Source: a virus. From it: 51,672 nt of DNA. Below, one piece after another: positions 5,237-27,432 of this stretch. The notes under the pieces are model-generated. The model had not been told where the DNA came from and searched no databases. It worked only from the letters and a program-made list of their open reading frames with translations. The DNA is taken from the IMG/VR virus record IMGVR_UViG_3300034177_000075, positions 1 to 51,672 of that record; one strand, given 5' to 3'. Made by a program: the position numbers and the translations under genes. How positions within the stretch are numbered: position 1 is the stretch's first letter; every line of letters begins with the position of its first letter.

Positions 5237-5591
5237 CGGTCCAATCGAGGCGTCGTGCCGAGCCTGGCTGAGGGAGAACATGCCCCTGGAACTGCGCGAC
5301 GACGGAGAGCCGCACTTCTCACACGTCTTACTCCTTACCGCCTTCGTCCTCAAACACTGCCGTGAGGGTAAGAGGGATATGCGGGAGCGGGCGGCCGAGT
5401 ATGTGGCTACTCACTATCCTGTCTATCACACCGGGAGAAGTTCGTTCGGGTGGATTATGGAGAAGAGCGGCCAGCCGCAAGATGGCGGAAAGGTCCAAGA
5501 GACCTATGCCAAGGCGATTCGCGCTCTGCCCGACGAGCCGGAGGAGAAACTAAAGGTATCTGCCGCGGTGATCGCGCGGATGGCCGAATGA
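5229..5591 (+). CDS. 120-aa hypothetical protein upstream of the polymerase
   Basis: GTG 5229 overlaps the previous gene by 8 nt. Helical protein with a HFSHVLLLTAFVLKHC segment and a conserved-looking YHTGRSSFGWIMEKSG stretch. The stop overlaps the ATG of the fused polymerase gene, so the two are probably translated in step. No family recognised. Confidence 0.65.
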   Translation: MANGPIEASCRAWLRENMPLELRDDGEPHFSHVLLLTAFVLKHCREGKRDMRERAAEYVATHYPVYHTGRSSFGWIMEKSGQPQDGGKVQETYAKAIRALPDEPEEKLKVSAAVIARMAE

Positions 5592-8500
5592 GTCGAGGCC
5601 CTCAACAGGCGGGCCTCTTCGGCGACGCCGAGGAGTGGGAAGACGACTGGCGAGGGATGCCGGAGTTCATCCAGGAAGACCTCGCGCCCGCGACATCGAT
5701 CACCGTCGAGTTCGACGACGGCCCGCTTTACGTCCACTTCGAGGACCGTGCGGTCAAACTCGGGTTCGAGCGCAAGCTCTCAGCCGCGCTCGCGGCGCGC
5801 CGTCTAGAGTTCGCCGACGGCGCGGCGACGCCCGCGCGTCTCGGCCGCGAGTGGTTCTCGACGATCGCCGGCCAAGACATACCGGAGGGCAATCCCGATC
5901 GACGCCGGACGCAGTCGATCTGGTACCCGGAAGCCGAGATCGGGCACTACGCGAATAAGCTCTATGTAACCGACGCCCCGGTAAATCCTCGTTATCCCGT
6001 CTACATCATCTCGAAGGGCCGATGGGAGTCTCGCCTAACGTCGAAGGCTCTGGAGGAGCTACAAGTCCCGTATAGAATCGTAGTAGAGCCCCAGGAGCGG
6101 GACGCCTACGCGGCAGTCATTGATCCCGAGAAGATTCTAGTGCTTCCGTTCTCGAATCTCGGACAGGGATCAATCCCCGCGCGGAACTGGGTTTGGGAGC
6201 ATTCTATCTCCACGGGAGCGCAGCGGCATTGGATTCTTGACGACAATATCGGGGGATTCTACCGGCTAAACCGCAATCTAAAGACCCCGGTTGGCTCAGG
6301 TGCGATTTTCCGCGCGTCGGAAGATATGGTAGACCGCTACGAAAATGTCGCCATCTCCGGGTTCCACTACTTCATGTTCGCGTTCCACTACTTCATGTTC
6401 GCGTCACGCAAGACTAAGCTCCCCCCCTTTACGCTAAACTCTCGGATCTACTCGTGCATCCTAATCCGAAACGACATCCCGCATAGGTGGCGGGGCCGGT
6501 ACAACGAGGATACGGACCTCTCGATACGCGCGTTGAAGGACGGGTGGTGTACTATCCTCTTCTCTGCATTCTTGGCCGGAAAAAAGCAGACCATGACGAT
6601 GCGTGGCGGCAATACGGACGAGCTTTATGCAGGAACTGAGCAGGGGCCCACGGAGGAAGACGGCCGATGGAAAATGGCCGAGTCCTTGCGGCTCCAGCAC
6701 CCCGATATCGTTGCGGTCGCGCGGAAGTGGGGGCGGTGGCAACACCAGGTCGACTACTCGGGATTCAGGCGAAACCGTCTGCGGCTTCGCCCCGGCGTCA
6801 CAATCCTCGAGGGGGTCGATAACTTCGGGATGAGGCTCGTTATCCGTGAGGCTCCGACCCCCCCTACTCCTGCTCCGGCTCCGCATATCGAGGTCTTTCA
6901 TACGCCTGTTGGCGCGATCCCGACGATTCAGGCCGGGATGTTCGCCGCGCCGTCAACGGCGTGGCGGGCGCCCGAGCCTCCGGACCTCCGAGATTGCCGG
7001 GAGCTGGCGTTCGACCTCGAGACCACGGGACTAGACTGGCGGGGCGTCGATCGCCCGTGCGGCGTCGCCATCTACCCCCGCGGCGGCGTCCCGATCTACC
7101 TCCCCTTCGGCCACCGTGGCGGCGACAACCTGGACGAGCGGCGGGTCAAGGACTGGTGCCTGACGCAGCTCCGCGGCCGTCGCCTCTGGGGCGCGAACAT
7201 CAAGTTCGACGCCCACATGTTCCGCGAGTGGACGGGCGTCGACCTCGAGGATCTCGGCTGCCGGCTCTCCGACGTCCAGCACCGCGCGGCGCTACTCGAC
7301 GACCACCGACAGCACTTCGGCCTCGATGTCCTGGGCCGCGATATCCTGGGCGTCGGCAAGCTCCAGGGAGTTGATCTCTCCCGCGGCGCCGCCGTCCACC
7401 CGTCATCCGCCGTCGGCCCGTACGCGGAGCGCGACGTCGAACTGACCCTGCGGCTCGCCGACGTCTTCGAGCCGCAGATCGCAGCCCAGGGCCTCGGCGC
7501 CGTGGCGGACCTCGAGGACGACATCATCTTCCCCGTCCTGGAGATGGAACGCAACGGCGCGCCCCTCGACGTCGAGAAGCTCGAGCGGTGGCTCCGCGAG
7601 GCCGAGGCCGAGCGCCAGGCGACGCTCTGGGATGTCTACCGCGAGACCGGGATGCGCGTCGACCCCGACCGGCCGGATGAACTCGCGGCACTGTGGCGTA
7701 AGCTCGGGCTCCCGGAGCCGCCGACGACGGCGACGGGACGCCCGAGCTTCACAGGCGCCGTACTCAAAGCCGCCAGCCACCCGATCGTCGACAAGCTACT
7801 CCACGCCGCGCACCTCGCGGACCTCGCGATCAAGTTCCTGATCCCGTACTCCAAGCGCCGCGTCGGCGACCTCCTGACGTTCCAGCTCGAGCAGCTCCGG
7901 GGCGAGAAGGGGGGAACGGTGAGCGGCCGGTTCTCGGCCCACAGCGAGAACATCCAGCAGGTCCTCAGCGCCGAGAAACAGCGTGCCGAGTACGGCGACC
8001 GCTACCTGGTGCGCGAGCTGTTCGTCCCGCGATCCGGCGTCCTCGTCGCCGCGGACGCGCGGCAGATCCAGTTGCGGATCCTCGCCCACTACGCGGAGAG
8101 CCCGCGGCTACTCGCCGCCTACGCCGCGGACCCGCTGACGGACTTTCACGCCGAGGTCGGGAAGATGCTAGAGCCGTTCGTCCCAGGATTCCCGCGGAAG
8201 CGCCTCAAGATCACGAACTTCACCCGGATCTTCGGCGGCGGCCGCGGCAAGATCGCGTCGCAGACGGGGATGTCCGTCGAGGAAACGGAGACGTTCCTCG
8301 TCGCCTACGATCGCGCGTTCCCCGAGGGCCGGGCGTTCCTCGAGCGCGCGTCGCGCGCGGCAAAAACCCGGGGCTATGTCCGGACATTCCTTGGCCGCCG
8401 CCAGCGGTACCCCGATTGTCCGAAGCACGGAAAGGGGCAGCGCGGTCCGTGCCCGACGTGCCCGCGCCTCCACAAGGCGGCCAATGACGTGATTCAGGGC

Positions 8501-8725
8501 ACGGAGGCCGACGTCGTGAAACGCAAGCTCGTGGAGCTTCACCGCCAGCGCCACGAGCTGGGGCTGACTCTCCGTATGGTCGTACACGACGAGGTCGTCG
8601 GCGATGTCGCGGACGCCGAGGCCGCGGCGCGCGTCGCCGACGTCCTCGACGAACAGACGACGACGCTACGGGTACCGATCCTGTGGTCGGCCAAGACGGG
8701 CGCCAATTGGGCGGTTTGCGCTTGA
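5588..8725 (+). CDS. TAGT-family glycosyltransferase fused to family A DNA polymerase
   Basis: 1045 residues in one open frame; ATG 5588 overlaps the previous stop. Residues 1-130: the domain that usually precedes TAGT proteins (GMPEFIQEDL, SIWYPEAEIGHYA). About 136-418: TET-associated glycosyltransferase (YPVYIISKGRWESRL, GQGSIPARNW, DDN near 217, YNEDTD near 305), a family predicted to put sugar on oxidised pyrimidines in DNA. About 421-435: Pro-rich linker. About 474-615: 3'-5' exonuclease with all motifs (DLETTG, NIKFD, YAERD). About 640-1045: polymerase with motif A DARQIQLR, motif B KITNFTRIFG and motif C VHDEV. Motif A carries Gln where Pol I has Glu710, and motif B Phe where Pol I has Tyr766. 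A Cys-rich insert (CPKHGKGQRGPCPTC) lies between B and C. A 7-residue tandem duplication sits in the TAGT part. Confidence 0.9.
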   Translation: MSRGPQQAGLFGDAEEWEDDWRGMPEFIQEDLAPATSITVEFDDGPLYVHFEDRAVKLGFERKLSAALAARRLEFADGAATPARLGREWFSTIAGQDIPEGNPDRRRTQSIWYPEAEIGHYANKLYVTDAPVNPRYPVYIISKGRWESRLTSKALEELQVPYRIVVEPQERDAYAAVIDPEKILVLPFSNLGQGSIPARNWVWEHSISTGAQRHWILDDNIGGFYRLNRNLKTPVGSGAIFRASEDMVDRYENVAISGFHYFMFAFHYFMFASRKTKLPPFTLNSRIYSCILIRNDIPHRWRGRYNEDTDLSIRALKDGWCTILFSAFLAGKKQTMTMRGGNTDELYAGTEQGPTEEDGRWKMAESLRLQHPDIVAVARKWGRWQHQVDYSGFRRNRLRLRPGVTILEGVDNFGMRLVIREAPTPPTPAPAPHIEVFHTPVGAIPTIQAGMFAAPSTAWRAPEPPDLRDCRELAFDLETTGLDWRGVDRPCGVAIYPRGGVPIYLPFGHRGGDNLDERRVKDWCLTQLRGRRLWGANIKFDAHMFREWTGVDLEDLGCRLSDVQHRAALLDDHRQHFGLDVLGRDILGVGKLQGVDLSRGAAVHPSSAVGPYAERDVELTLRLADVFEPQIAAQGLGAVADLEDDIIFPVLEMERNGAPLDVEKLERWLREAEAERQATLWDVYRETGMRVDPDRPDELAALWRKLGLPEPPTTATGRPSFTGAVLKAASHPIVDKLLHAAHLADLAIKFLIPYSKRRVGDLLTFQLEQLRGEKGGTVSGRFSAHSENIQQVLSAEKQRAEYGDRYLVRELFVPRSGVLVAADARQIQLRILAHYAESPRLLAAYAADPLTDFHAEVGKMLEPFVPGFPRKRLKITNFTRIFGGGRGKIASQTGMSVEETETFLVAYDRAFPEGRAFLERASRAAKTRGYVRTFLGRRQRYPDCPKHGKGQRGPCPTCPRLHKAANDVIQGTEADVVKRKLVELHRQRHELGLTLRMVVHDEVVGDVADAEAAARVADVLDEQTTTLRVPILWSAKTGANWAVCA
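6361..6402 (+). repeat. Perfect 21-bp tandem duplication inside the TAGT domain
   Basis: Two identical 21-bp units (6361-6381, 6382-6402) give FHYFMFA twice. Family members, as I recall them, have one such segment, so this is a recent in-frame insertion. Confidence 0.9.
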
Positions 8726-22731: not shown

Positions 22732-22901
22732 CGATAGAGGAGCTAGTCGTGTTCGTGCGCGAGTGCGCCGCGGGACGGCAGGTTACGAACGCTGAGGCAC
22801 GCGTCGTGCTGAGCCGAGGGCTATGTGCTGACGGATACGAGACGCATACGCCGACACGGTACCTAGTTTTGACGATCGACCTCGAGCAGGTGTCGCAATG
22901 A
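22728..22901 (+). CDS. 57-aa hypothetical protein
   Basis: GTG 22728 overlaps the previous stop and its own stop overlaps the next ATG. Reads VTIEELVVFVRECAAGRQVT, then a YETHTPTRYLVLTIDL segment. No family recognised, but the tight coupling on both sides supports it. Confidence 0.6.
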   Translation: MTIEELVVFVRECAAGRQVTNAEARVVLSRGLCADGYETHTPTRYLVLTIDLEQVSQ

Positions 22902-23281
22902 AGGTCGAACTCCTGCGCGTCGCCGTGCTCCCCGAGGGTGCATTCGGCGTCCTCAAGGTCGACGGCCGGCCCGTGGCCCTGGCCCTCGAGCGCACATATA
23001 AGAATCTCGAGGTCAAGATTCCGGCGGGATCCTGGCGCTGCGTGCCGACCGTGTATCACAAAGGCCGCTACCCGACGTGGGAGATCCTGGTGCCGGGACA
23101 CTCGCGGCTGCTGTTCCATCGCGGCAATTGGGAGACGGATCTCGACGGCTGCATCGCGGTCGCGCGCTCTTTCGAGGGCACGTGGGTAAGTGGCAGCCGC
23201 GGATTCGAGGCGTTCGAGCGCGCGGCGATGCCGGACGGCGAGCGTCGCGAGTTCATGTTGGAAGTCCGAGATGCGGGGTAG
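22898..23281 (+). CDS. DUF5675 family protein
   Basis: 127 residues, full length. Contains GAFGVLKVDGRPVALALER, KIPAGSWRC and SRLLFHRGNWETDLDGCI with the conserved HxGN and GC residues of DUF5675, a family common in phage lysis regions with no established enzyme activity, sometimes likened to L,D-transpeptidase folds. ATG 22898 overlaps the prior stop. Its last 10 nt are also the first 10 nt of tRNA-Met. Confidence 0.8.
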   Translation: MKVELLRVAVLPEGAFGVLKVDGRPVALALERTYKNLEVKIPAGSWRCVPTVYHKGRYPTWEILVPGHSRLLFHRGNWETDLDGCIAVARSFEGTWVSGSRGFEAFERAAMPDGERREFMLEVRDAG

Positions 23282-23348
23282 CGCAGCATGGTAGCGCGCC
23301 TGGCTCATAACCAGGAGGTCGCCGGTTCGAGTCCGGCCCCCGCGTCCA
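23272..23348 (+). tRNA. tRNA-Met (CAT)
   Basis: Full cloverleaf with encoded CCA: acceptor TGCGGGG/CCCCGCG with a U-G first pair, D-stem GCGC/GCGC, anticodon stem CCTGG/CCAGG around CTCATAA, T-arm GCCGG-TTCGAGT-CCGGC. The anticodon stem lacks the three G-C pairs of initiators, so elongator type; a lysidine-modified tRNA-Ile cannot be excluded. It overlaps a stop codon at its 5' end and contains the start of the next protein gene. Confidence 0.9.
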
Positions 23349-23449
23349 ATCCGTGTTCCGCGTGCGGCTGGCCGATGCGTTATATCGGCCACTGCAAGCT
23401 GATCTGTTTTCGCTGTGGCCTGCTCCTCGGCTGTTCGGAGGGAACATGA
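23288..23449 (+). CDS. Zinc-ribbon protein whose start lies inside tRNA-Met
   Basis: 53 residues. The conserved part CSACGWPM, then GHCKLICFRCG and a further Cys, is a familiar phage zinc ribbon. The only in-frame start before it is ATG 23288, within the tRNA D-arm, so the first ~20 residues (MVARLAHNQEVAGSSPAPAS) are read from tRNA sequence. Its stop overlaps the next ATG (ATGA). Transcripts processed to tRNA would lose this start. Confidence 0.6.
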   Translation: MVARLAHNQEVAGSSPAPASNPCSACGWPMRYIGHCKLICFRCGLLLGCSEGT

Positions 23450-23670
23450 CTTGGTACCGCATCCACGCCGGTCTCGCGCCGCGGCCGAAGCCGTGGATGA
23501 ACGCCGCGTGTGCGCGTCAATGTGGTGAGCCACGGAAGGCAGGTAGCGTTTTCTGCACCAAGCATGACGCGGAGTCGGCGTCCAAGATCGGCGCCGCGCT
23601 GGACGGCTATCGGGATGTCACGCGCGCGGATCCGACGGTAGTCCGTACGTTTTCAAAGGAGCCAGAATGA
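23446..23670 (+). CDS. 74-aa zinc-binding phage protein
   Basis: Good ribosome site (GGAGGGAAC) before ATG 23446. Contains CARQCGEPRKAGSVFCTKH, a compact Cys/His metal site seen in small phage proteins. The C-terminus is polar. Function unknown. Confidence 0.65.
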   Translation: MTWYRIHAGLAPRPKPWMNAACARQCGEPRKAGSVFCTKHDAESASKIGAALDGYRDVTRADPTVVRTFSKEPE

Positions 23671-23988: not shown

Positions 23989-24669
23989 GTGAAACATTGG
24001 CTCAGCGCCAGGGAACATTGGCTCAGCGCCAGGGAACATTGGCTCAGCGCCAGGGAATCTGTGCACTGCCCCGTCCTCCTCCCCGCGGACGTGATCCTCA
24101 CGCGAAGTGACACGTTCCTCGGCAAGGCGATCCGCCTCGCGACGCGCCGGCTCGGCGACGCCGTGGTCTACAACCACTCGGGGATTGTGACGCAGTCGGG
24201 GCTCGTCCCCGGGCCCTACGCGGACGCCGTTGACAGTGGCGCGTGCATGACCGAGGCGCTGTGGCGCGTCCGCTACGGCGCGGTCTGGCGGTTCTACGGT
24301 CCGCCCGCGGGGCCCAAGCGGCCCGAGGTCGCGATCTGGAGGCCGTTCTCCCTGGACTCGCCGACGCGGAGCCGCATCGCGGCGCACGCCGAGGCGCGCG
24401 TCGGCCAGCGGTACGCGTGGTGGCGCCTAAGCGCGCACCTCGCGGACAGCGCTCTCTCATGGCTCGCGTTTGGCCACGACGTTAGGCTGTTCCGCCGCGT
24501 CAACGTCACGGACCGCCCCATCTGCTCGTGGCTCGTCGCCGAAGCATTCTCGGCCGAGGGCCTCGACTTTGGCGTTCCCGCGGCGTCGGCTGACCCCGAT
24601 GACATCGCGGACTACGTGGAGACTCACCCGCTAAAGTACGCGTTGGTCTTCGAGGGGCGGATCGCGTGA
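23989..24669 (+). CDS. Permuted papain-like amidase (YiiX/C92 type), candidate lysis enzyme
   Basis: 226 residues. GTG 23989 has GAGG 5 nt upstream. Residues 3-23 are three HWLSARE repeats. The domain then starts ADVILTRSDTFLGKAIRLAT, with catalytic His in NHSGIVTQSG and catalytic Cys in RPICSWLVAEAF, the order of permuted NlpC/P60 enzymes. These cleave amide bonds in peptidoglycan or lipids. Closest candidate for an endolysin in this window, beside holin-like genes. A GTG at 24058 could start the domain without the repeats. Confidence 0.7.
   Translation: MKHWLSAREHWLSAREHWLSARESVHCPVLLPADVILTRSDTFLGKAIRLATRRLGDAVVYNHSGIVTQSGLVPGPYADAVDSGACMTEALWRVRYGAVWRFYGPPAGPKRPEVAIWRPFSLDSPTRSRIAAHAEARVGQRYAWWRLSAHLADSALSWLAFGHDVRLFRRVNVTDRPICSWLVAEAFSAEGLDFGVPAASADPDDIADYVETHPLKYALVFEGRIA
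23993..24055 (+). repeat. 21-bp tandem repeat, three perfect units
   Basis: Three identical 21-bp units in frame at the very start of the amidase gene, each coding HWLSARE. Each unit also contains CCAGGGAA. Confidence 0.9.
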
Positions 24670-25575: not shown

Positions 25576-25817
25576 TCGACAAGCTCTGGGCGTTCCTGAT
25601 CGCCCTCAATGACAAGGCGTTCCGCACCGCGGTGCTCCTCGCGCTGCTCGGTATGGGCTACGCGCAGTGGTCGACGTGGAAGGCCGTCAAGGCCGTAGGC
25701 GCGGATCGCGCGATCGAGGCGCGCGTCGTCGCCGTTGAGAAGGAGCAGGCGGTCACGGCTGTACGCATTGCGTCGCTCGAGGCGCAGGTCAAGAAGCTCT
25801 GGGAGCGGCGACGGTGA
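25572..25817 (+). CDS. 81-aa membrane protein with coiled coil, holin or spanin-like
   Basis: ATG 25572 overlaps the previous stop. Transmembrane segment TAVLLALLGMGYAQWSTW (residues ~19-36) and a C-terminal coiled coil (VVAVEKEQAVTAVRIASLEA, ending KLWERRR). Paired with the previous gene it makes a plausible lysis cassette next to the amidase. Confidence 0.65.
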   Translation: MIDKLWAFLIALNDKAFRTAVLLALLGMGYAQWSTWKAVKAVGADRAIEARVVAVEKEQAVTAVRIASLEAQVKKLWERRR

Positions 25818-25933
25818 AAGCGGCGGCGGCGGTGAAGAAGGACTGCGTCTACTGCGAGACCTGCGGCTGCTGCATTACGTGCAACGGCTGCGAGCACGGC
25901 GGCTGTCGATGTTGCTGCGAGAAGTGCAAGTGA
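25814..25933 (+). CDS. 39-aa protein with 12 cysteines
   Basis: GTG 25814 overlaps the previous stop as GTGA (an alternative GTG is at 25832). The core CVYCETCGCCITCNGCEHGG continues with CRCCCEKC: 12 Cys in 39 residues, mostly CxxC and CC pairs, like a metallothionein or multi-zinc peptide. Its stop overlaps the GTG proposed for large terminase. No family recognised. Confidence 0.65.
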   Translation: MKAAAAVKKDCVYCETCGCCITCNGCEHGGCRCCCEKCK

Positions 25934-27432
25934 TTTGCGGGGACGTGGTGTCAACGGAAGCACGGGAGGCTGTGGCCCTCCAGGAGCCGGGTTCGAGTCC
26001 CGCCGCTCCCTATGCTGCGCGTATCGACGAGGTCGAGGCCCTCGAGGCCGAGGTCGCGCGGCGATCGCTACGGTACTTCGTGCGCCTCACGTGGCCGATC
26101 GTCGAGCCGTCGGCGCCGCTCGTCTGGAACTGGCATCTCGACGTCATCTGCGATCGCCTCGAGGCCGTGACACGCGGCGACGTCAGGAACTTGATCCTGA
26201 ACGTTCCGCCCGGGTGCATGAAGAGCCTCCTCGTCTCCGTGTTCTGGCCCGCTTGGGAGTGGGCGACGGATCCCGCCAAGCGCTACCTCTGCGCGTCGTA
26301 CGGCCAGCATCTGTCGACCCGTGACAACCTCAAGGTCCGCGACATCGTGACGTCCCCCTGGTATCGGCAGCATTTTGGCGTCCGACTACGCGGCGATCAG
26401 AACGCGAAGATGCGGTTTGACACCTCGGACGGCGGGTGGCGGATTGGGACGTCGATCGGCGGCCCTGGTACCGGCGAGCATCCGCACCGGAAGATCGTGG
26501 ATGATCCGCACTCGGAGAGCCAGGCGCGGTCGGATGCCGAGCGCGAGGAGTCGCTACGATGGGTTGACGGCACGCTGTCGACGCGCGGAGTCGCCCTCGA
26601 CGCGGCGACGATCCTCGTGATGCAGCGGTTCCACCAGAAGGACATGACCGCACACTTCCTCGAGCGTGGCGGTTTCGAGCACGTAATATTCCCCATGAGG
26701 TTCGAGCTCGAGCGCGCGGATTTACGGGATCGCCGCAAGATCGCGGGCTCGTTGCTGTGGCCCGCGCTATTCCCCGAGGAAAAGGTCAAGGCGCTCGAGT
26801 TGCGGCTCGGCCAGTACGGTGTCGCGGGACAGCTCCAGCAGCGGCCGGCGCCGGCCGGGGGCGGCCTCTTCAAGCGCGCGTGGTTCGTCGTCGTCGACCG
26901 CGTGCCAGAGGGCAACCCCCGGCGCCGCGTCCGCGCCTGGGATGTCGCGGCCACGGAGGGCGCGGGTTGCCGTACGGCCGGCGTCCGGATCGCGGACTTC
27001 GGGGACAAGGCGAGCCCCCGGTTCTTGATCGAGAACGTCGAAAAGGGACAGTGGGGGCCCGCGGAGGTCGATCGGCGGATCGCGGAAGCCGCGGCTAGCG
27101 ACGGCCGTGAGTGCGCGATCCGGGAAGAGCAGGAAGGAGGGAGCGCGGGGAAGAGCGTAATCGTTGCACGGGCCCGGGCCCTCGCCGGCTACGACTACCG
27201 CGCGATGCCCGCGACGGGCAGCAAGGAGGTCCGCGCCAACGCGCTGCGTGCCCAGGCCGAGGCCGGGAATGTCGGGCTGTTGCGTTCCGGGTGGAACGCC
27301 GAATTCTTGGACGAGGCCGAGATATTTCCGAACGGCACGTACCTGGACCAGATCGACGGCGCGGCGCACGCGATGAACGACTTGGTAACGGGGCCGCGTG
27401 CGGTGGGCGTCCGCGAGGTGAGGTGGGGATGA
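25930..27432 (+). CDS. terL: Terminase large subunit
   Basis: 500 residues from GTG 25930, which overlaps the stop of the Cys-rich gene. ATPase: Walker A NVPPGCMKSLLVSVFW (~residue 94), Walker B KIVDDPH (~190), and the coupling segment TLSTRGVALDAATILVMQRF. Nuclease: RAWDVAATEGAG (~336), CAIREEQEGGSAGKS (~395) and an acidic C-terminal IDGAAHAMNDL. Family terminase_6-like. The codons for residues 4-28 are also tRNA-His; homology proper begins around EVARRSLRYFVRLTWP, so the true start could be later, but no better start codon exists after the tRNA. Confidence 0.9.
   Translation: MICGDVVSTEAREAVALQEPGSSPAAPYAARIDEVEALEAEVARRSLRYFVRLTWPIVEPSAPLVWNWHLDVICDRLEAVTRGDVRNLILNVPPGCMKSLLVSVFWPAWEWATDPAKRYLCASYGQHLSTRDNLKVRDIVTSPWYRQHFGVRLRGDQNAKMRFDTSDGGWRIGTSIGGPGTGEHPHRKIVDDPHSESQARSDAEREESLRWVDGTLSTRGVALDAATILVMQRFHQKDMTAHFLERGGFEHVIFPMRFELERADLRDRRKIAGSLLWPALFPEEKVKALELRLGQYGVAGQLQQRPAPAGGGLFKRAWFVVVDRVPEGNPRRRVRAWDVAATEGAGCRTAGVRIADFGDKASPRFLIENVEKGQWGPAEVDRRIAEAAASDGRECAIREEQEGGSAGKSVIVARARALAGYDYRAMPATGSKEVRANALRAQAEAGNVGLLRSGWNAEFLDEAEIFPNGTYLDQIDGAAHAMNDLVTGPRAVGVREVRWG
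25939..26011 (+). tRNA. tRNA-His (GTG), nested in the terminase 5' end
   Basis: Acceptor GGGGACG/CGCTCCC (one A-C mismatch, one G-U), D-stem GTGT/GCAC, anticodon stem GGAGG/CCTCC around CTGTGGC, T-arm CCGGG-TTCGAGT-CCCGC (last pair mismatched). No encoded CCA and no G at -1, so it needs host maturation. Its imperfections make it less certain than tRNA-Met. Confidence 0.65.

Follow-up and report, generated by a model that had tools for sequence, protein, structure and literature searches.

A phage tRNA-Met gene that may host the start of a small zinc-ribbon gene

The window, a 51,672-nt stretch of viral DNA (IMG/VR record IMGVR_UViG_3300034177_000075), contains a complete tRNA-Met gene that is entered from both sides by protein-coding frames. 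A DUF5675 protein gene ends in its 5′ part, and an ORF for a 53-residue zinc-ribbon protein begins at an ATG in its D-loop. The best reading of the sequence is that this ATG starts the zinc ribbon, and we consider it somewhat probable that it does. A tRNA that hosts a gene start looks, from the comparisons below, like a real and recurrent arrangement and not an annotation slip. The features of the locus are as follows.

22898-23281, + strand: DUF5675 protein gene (ORF list; Pfam PF18925, E 5.9e-12)
23272-23348, + strand: tRNA-Met, anticodon CAT, with encoded CCA (ARAGORN; Rfam RF00005, 64.3 bits against a gathering score of 29)
23274-23278, + strand: CGGGG of the acceptor stem, candidate Shine-Dalgarno sequence for ATG 23288, with 9 nt from GGGG to the ATG
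23288-23449, + strand: 53-aa zinc-ribbon ORF (ORF list), its first 20 codons being tRNA sequence
23446-23670, + strand: next ORF, 74 aa, with a strong GGAGG Shine-Dalgarno sequence (-10.0 kcal/mol)

The tRNA-Met has no non-standard stem pairs, its acceptor stem is closed by a U1-G72 wobble, and its single-strand fold is a complete cloverleaf of -34.5 kcal/mol. The gene is complete and sits amid packaging-side genes, which bears on an explanation as an attachment site. The best explanation is that it is a working phage tRNA gene within an operon of closely packed genes. TAG 23279-23281, with which the DUF5675 gene ends, occupies tRNA nucleotides 8-10, so that the overlap is exactly 10 nt, as the initial annotation had it. 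This TAG is in frame with ATG 23288, which lies 6 nt downstream. Neither the DUF5675 protein nor the 74-aa neighbour, used as queries, retrieved relatives.

ATG 23288 is tRNA nucleotide 17, in the D-loop, and 61 nt of the zinc-ribbon ORF, or about 20 codons, lie inside the tRNA, in agreement with the original description of the locus. Residues 1-20, encoded by the tRNA, are MVARLAHNQEVAGSSPAPAS, and residues 21-53, past the tRNA, are NPCSACGWPMRYIGHCKLICFRCGLLLGCSEGT. The claimed overlap at the other end of the ORF was likewise found: the stop TGA 23447-23449 shares the sequence ATGA with ATG 23446 of the next ORF, and ATGA or GTGA overlaps are also the style of the neighbouring genes. There is no in-frame ATG, GTG or TTG between ATG 23288 and the Met codon that follows the first CxxC. 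The candidate Shine-Dalgarno sequence CGGGG has a duplex energy of -6.3 kcal/mol, compared with -6.1 kcal/mol at the DUF5675 gene's own start and a background with a mean of -3.8 and a 10th percentile of -6.9. It is weak, and an AUG within a stable cloverleaf should initiate poorly. If the zinc ribbon starts here, its initiation is probably coupled to termination of DUF5675 translation 6 nt upstream. Further downstream, at 23989-24060, a unit of about 21 nt (acattggctcagcgccaggga) is repeated three times in tandem at the start of a 226-aa ORF, whose N-terminus reads MKHWLSAREHWLSAREHWLSARES.

The segment after the tRNA has the properties of a small zinc-binding domain. Two CxxC knuckles with zinc-ribbon spacing fall within the 32 post-tRNA codons, a motif that occurs in 0.27% of the dinucleotide shuffles that stay open and in 0.10% of open stretches of equal length anywhere in the window. 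The third-position GC content (GC3) of the post-tRNA segment is coding-like, at 0.74 in the zinc-ribbon frame; the two remaining frames have 0.50 and 0.62. The AlphaFold2 single-sequence model has a three-strand hairpin at residues 21-50, where the pLDDT is about 80, as opposed to about 50 in the tRNA-encoded part; two knuckles on a β hairpin are thus present both in the sequence and in the model. Foldseek returned mostly zinc ribbons for this model (TFS4, an RNA polymerase I subunit, NudC, L37ae, and TFIIB), none with E below 0.001, and at this ORF's size such E-values are not significant. The NCBIfam profile of the HVO_2523 zinc finger (NF041914) matches the post-tRNA part at E 0.0004 and 20.3 bits, below its curated cutoff of 60, and the C-terminal zinc ribbon of B12-dependent ribonucleotide reductase gives a weak match at E 0.094, also below cutoff. 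For a protein of this fold, one would guess by default that it binds nucleic acid.

A search for relatives of the zinc ribbon by tblastn on phages, by a degenerate DNA pattern, by a peptide-pattern scan of IMG/VR, and in the genomes and records with terminase relatives found none with confidence. The phage tblastn matches, at E 2-9, were to ribonucleotide reductase, to an endonuclease, and to segments of haloviral Zn-fingers, and were set aside. Two further stretches, L010 and L015, gave matches that ran past the tRNA, yet they are not zinc ribbons. In the examined loci of terminase relatives, which have up to 53% identity, there is neither a tRNA-Met before the terminase nor a zinc ribbon.

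For want of a zinc-ribbon relative, other genes in the same placement were looked for. A pattern search for tRNA-Met genes with a D-loop ATG retrieved 19 viral stretches, four of which have an HNH endonuclease gene fused in frame to the tRNA; two more were reached through HNH relatives. The six contigs with intact fusions are L163, L174, L178, L179, L191, and L193. A pattern for tRNAs with an ATG in the D-loop had a single match in 385 genomes of one class. The peptide predicted across the tRNA-Met/HNH junction is NQEVAGSSPAPATK...W, and cultured lysogens with such a junction are represented by IMG isolate genomes 2821123053, 2599185236, 2818991461, and 2738541341. In all the fusions except L191, the sole ATG, GTG or TTG codons before the HNH domain lie inside the tRNA, with an ATG at nt 17 in each of the five and a TTG at nt 29 as well in three. 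L191 has one ATG in the tRNA, at nt 27, and another upstream of it. Only L174 has an alternative near-cognate start, a CTG inside the HNH domain. By these codons, the HNH genes other than that of L191 must start inside the tRNA, barring a near-cognate start. The zinc ribbon of the window, like these HNH genes, has no ATG, GTG or TTG between the tRNA and the domain.

Among four fusions that were compared, dN is 0.06-0.26 and dS ranges from 0.68 to saturated, for a dN/dS of about 0.1-0.3; judged by these rates, the HNH part of the four is under purifying selection. In most HNH relatives that lack the tRNA, an ATG lies 5-13 codons ahead of the domain. Mapping the fused state onto the HNH family tree takes five changes, of which well-supported branches force two or more, and no fusion matches the state of its immediate neighbours throughout; according to this tree, the arrangement has been gained or lost more than once. 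The tRNA-Met of L179 is the last in a run of four tRNAs, which argues that the HNH-fused tRNAs are real tRNA genes. In an additional contig, L189, an HNH gene with its own ATG lies close after a tRNA-Pro; this placement and those of the six fusions suggest that the HNH family tends toward the ends of tRNA clusters. TAG is found at tRNA nt 8-10 in five of the six fusions. A long upstream ORF ending there is present in L191 and absent from L163, L174, L178, and L179. It follows that upstream coupling is a feature of the window case and not of the class. The HNH fusions provide independent support, the strongest that we have, for a start in the tRNA.

The alternative that survives best is that an inserted or recombined tRNA has replaced the 5′ end of the zinc-ribbon gene, leaving a gene that is now untranslated and is being lost, with a frame that is open only generically. 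That the N-terminal 20 residues are a generic tRNA translation would fit such a history. So would contig 2582581307 (L181 and L145), in which a tRNA-Met runs into an HNH-like frame that is interrupted about 43 codons past the tRNA, and which indicates that tRNA fusions can decay as well. The zinc ribbon, however, is complete, keeps both of its knuckles and has a stop that overlaps the next start, and the six HNH fusions are intact and have a low dN/dS where it was measured. We regard loss of this kind as unlikely, though it deserves to be kept in mind.

The next alternative concerns what is generic about ORFs that begin in tRNAs. Such tRNAs generically translate to VARLAHNQEVAGSSPA, and the peptide of residues 1-20 was retrieved from dozens of unrelated phage contigs. 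Among 243 distinct tRNAs surveyed in the examined loci, 91 have an ORF that starts within the tRNA and reaches at least 30 codons past it. In such tRNA genes, the frame that reads GSSPA through the T-loop commonly contains a D-loop start and lacks a stop, and it gives rise to well-known spurious peptides. Because these properties are generic, neither the openness of the zinc-ribbon frame nor the GSSPA coincidence carries weight. The proposal that the tRNA supplies the start is still the best explanation and is supported independently by the six HNH fusions elsewhere; the shared GSSPA frame, which had been put forward with it, is in itself no evidence.

Accidental ORFs of this kind are a recognised class of false proteins, collected in AntiFam (PMC9710616), and the zinc-ribbon ORF could be one of them, a translated tRNA followed by a chance open frame with chance cysteines. 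It does lie over a tRNA in a generically open frame, and its N-terminal 20 residues are exactly such a peptide. It speaks for this alternative that the omega repressor of Pseudanabaena phage Pan5 (L132 1014-1304, ON968456.1) has been annotated with a GTG inside a tRNA-Met as its start despite the presence of internal starts; the tRNA itself is absent from the annotation of that record. We rejected Pan5 as a precedent for a start in a tRNA, since it has internal Met codons, among them that of MAAEKRTS directly before the recognisable part; its start is probably mis-set and, judging by the sequence, the real one is probably at the internal MAAEKRTS. The ORF of the window differs from the AntiFam class in that its other 33 residues form a zinc ribbon with no other start. 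A CxxC pair with zinc-ribbon spacing is found in just 0.1-0.3% of comparable open stretches, the predicted hairpin (pLDDT about 80) is confined to the non-tRNA part, and the GC3 and the ATGA overlap are gene-like. A spurious ORF is therefore an improbable explanation.

Still less probable is that an assembly error or indel masks an ordinary start of the zinc ribbon, for example by shifting GTG 23353 out of frame. The window is one viral contig of unknown read depth, and GTG 23353 is one frame off and just before the first Cys, but it has no Shine-Dalgarno sequence (-1.7 kcal/mol), and the same architecture recurs with HNH in several unrelated contigs. Amber readthrough of TAG 23279, giving a DUF5675-tRNA-zinc-ribbon fusion of about 182 residues beside the 127-residue DUF5675 product, would suit the single stop between two ORFs in one frame but is very improbable, since ARAGORN finds no amber-suppressor tRNA in the window, and in the HNH cases L163, L174, L178, and L179 no long ORF from upstream terminates at nt 8-10.

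A second tRNA in the window had been claimed to double as a protein 5′ end. The relevant features are as follows.

25939-26011, + strand: degenerate tRNA-His-like sequence (Rfam, 36.6 bits; four non-standard pairs)
25972-27432, + strand: terminase large subunit (phrog_38, E 8.6e-75)

A tRNA-His is expected to carry a G-1:C73 pair. The tRNA-His-like sequence has C at -1 and U at 73, and no CCA. Given these departures, the low score, and the non-standard pairs, the element is probably decayed. Its 3′ half, read in the frame of the terminase large subunit, gives GSSPAAPYAARIDE. The first standard start past the element is GTG 26080, which is inside the conserved region of the terminase, and the nearest start before it is GTG 25972, the anticodon triplet of the tRNA-His-like sequence. 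From GTG 25972, there are 31 residues before the conserved SLRYF, compared with about 29-34 in the relatives L045, L046, and L048, as counted by eye. Since there is no other plausible nearby start, and since the N-terminal length agrees with that of the relatives, the 3′ half of the element is, from its sequence context, almost certainly translated if the terminase uses a standard start codon. The claim is thus right that the element lies in the terminase frame and could supply its start, but what would supply it is a degenerate tRNA-like sequence. The observation that this element and the tRNA-Met are in the same frame through the T-loop is also correct, as both read GSSPA, but this is a general property of such tRNAs and is not evidence. 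The almost certain translation of half of the element supports the general claim that tRNA sequence can become a protein 5′ end, in this case with tRNA function apparently given up.

Directly before the tRNA-His-like element is a 39-aa cysteine-rich ORF, MKAAAAVKKDCVYCETCGCCITCNGCEHGGCRCCCEKCK (25814-25933), which overlaps the upstream part of the terminase frame. Elsewhere in the window, ARAGORN calls a tRNA-Arg at 8234-8314 on the - strand, inside the DNA polymerase ORF (5450-8725; phrog_17, E 2.5e-84); it lacks Rfam support and is probably a false call. Residues 180-393 of that ORF match phrog_842, labelled beta-glucosyl-HMC-alpha-glucosyltransferase, at E 1.5e-38, which reflects either a domain fusion or a mislabelled family.

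Returning to the reading that ATG 23288 starts the zinc ribbon, we propose that the same RNA segment can meet either of two fates, translation or tRNA maturation. In the first, a ribosome ending DUF5675 translation at U8-A9-G10 would keep the acceptor and D stems unfolded and would be placed beside the D-loop AUG at nt 17. Helped by GGGG in the acceptor stem, a weak candidate Shine-Dalgarno sequence, it could re-initiate there to make a 53-aa protein, consisting of a flexible, tRNA-encoded tail of 20 residues and then a mini zinc ribbon, and the ATGA overlap would then carry translation on into the following gene. In the second, the tRNA would fold first, and a cut by RNase P at 23271/23272 together with 3′ processing would release it; such excision would remove the DUF5675 stop and destroy the zinc-ribbon start. 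Both fates are inferred from the layout of the sequence.

It is tempting to extend this proposal to a wider one, namely that in phages, complete tRNA-Met genes serve time and again as initiation region and N-terminal tail for small proteins encoded downstream, such as HNH nucleases and zinc ribbons, with tRNA maturation and protein synthesis being mutually exclusive and setting each other's level. We offer this wider proposal tentatively, as a possibility that we would not bet on. If the zinc ribbon is translated, one tRNA gene provides a tRNA, the end of one protein gene, and the beginning of another. Such translation would also mean that NQEVAGSSPA-type peptides, which are as a rule dismissed as spurious, can on occasion be true N-termini, and that a pre-tRNA can be the object of competition between its processing and its translation. 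The HNH/tRNA-Met cases offer a directly testable system. A search of the open-access full-text literature turned up no description of such starts embedded in tRNAs.

The arrangement can be compared with several known systems. The closest likeness is with the HNH/tRNA-Met fusions, in which the frame likewise leaves the tRNA-Met at the 3′ end and enters a conserved small gene without a start of its own; the gene there is an HNH nuclease instead of a zinc ribbon, and a long upstream ORF stopping in the tRNA is found only in L191. The zinc ribbon itself shares the layout CxxC ... C..CxxCG ... C with HVO_2523-type zinc fingers and with the zinc ribbon of B12-dependent ribonucleotide reductase, but the phage version is free-standing and starts in a tRNA. 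The archaeal suicidal (SSV-type) integrases carry the att/tRNA sequence inside their gene, which is split on integration (PMC8371274). There, too, a protein includes residues translated from tRNA-derived sequence; that sequence, however, serves a tyrosine recombinase as its att site, whereas the window has a complete tRNA gene before an unrelated small protein, for which profile searches gave no recombinase match. Finally, in Mycobacterium phage PegLeg (NC_021299), genes 102 and 107, an upstream gene shares exactly 10 nt with a tRNA, and such overlaps are annotated twice, with tRNA-Met and with tRNA-Leu. PegLeg differs in having no annotated gene start inside a tRNA, its gene 107 starting 14 nt after tRNA-His. 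The PegLeg overlaps therefore provide a precedent for one half of the finding, the overlap of the DUF5675 gene with the tRNA.
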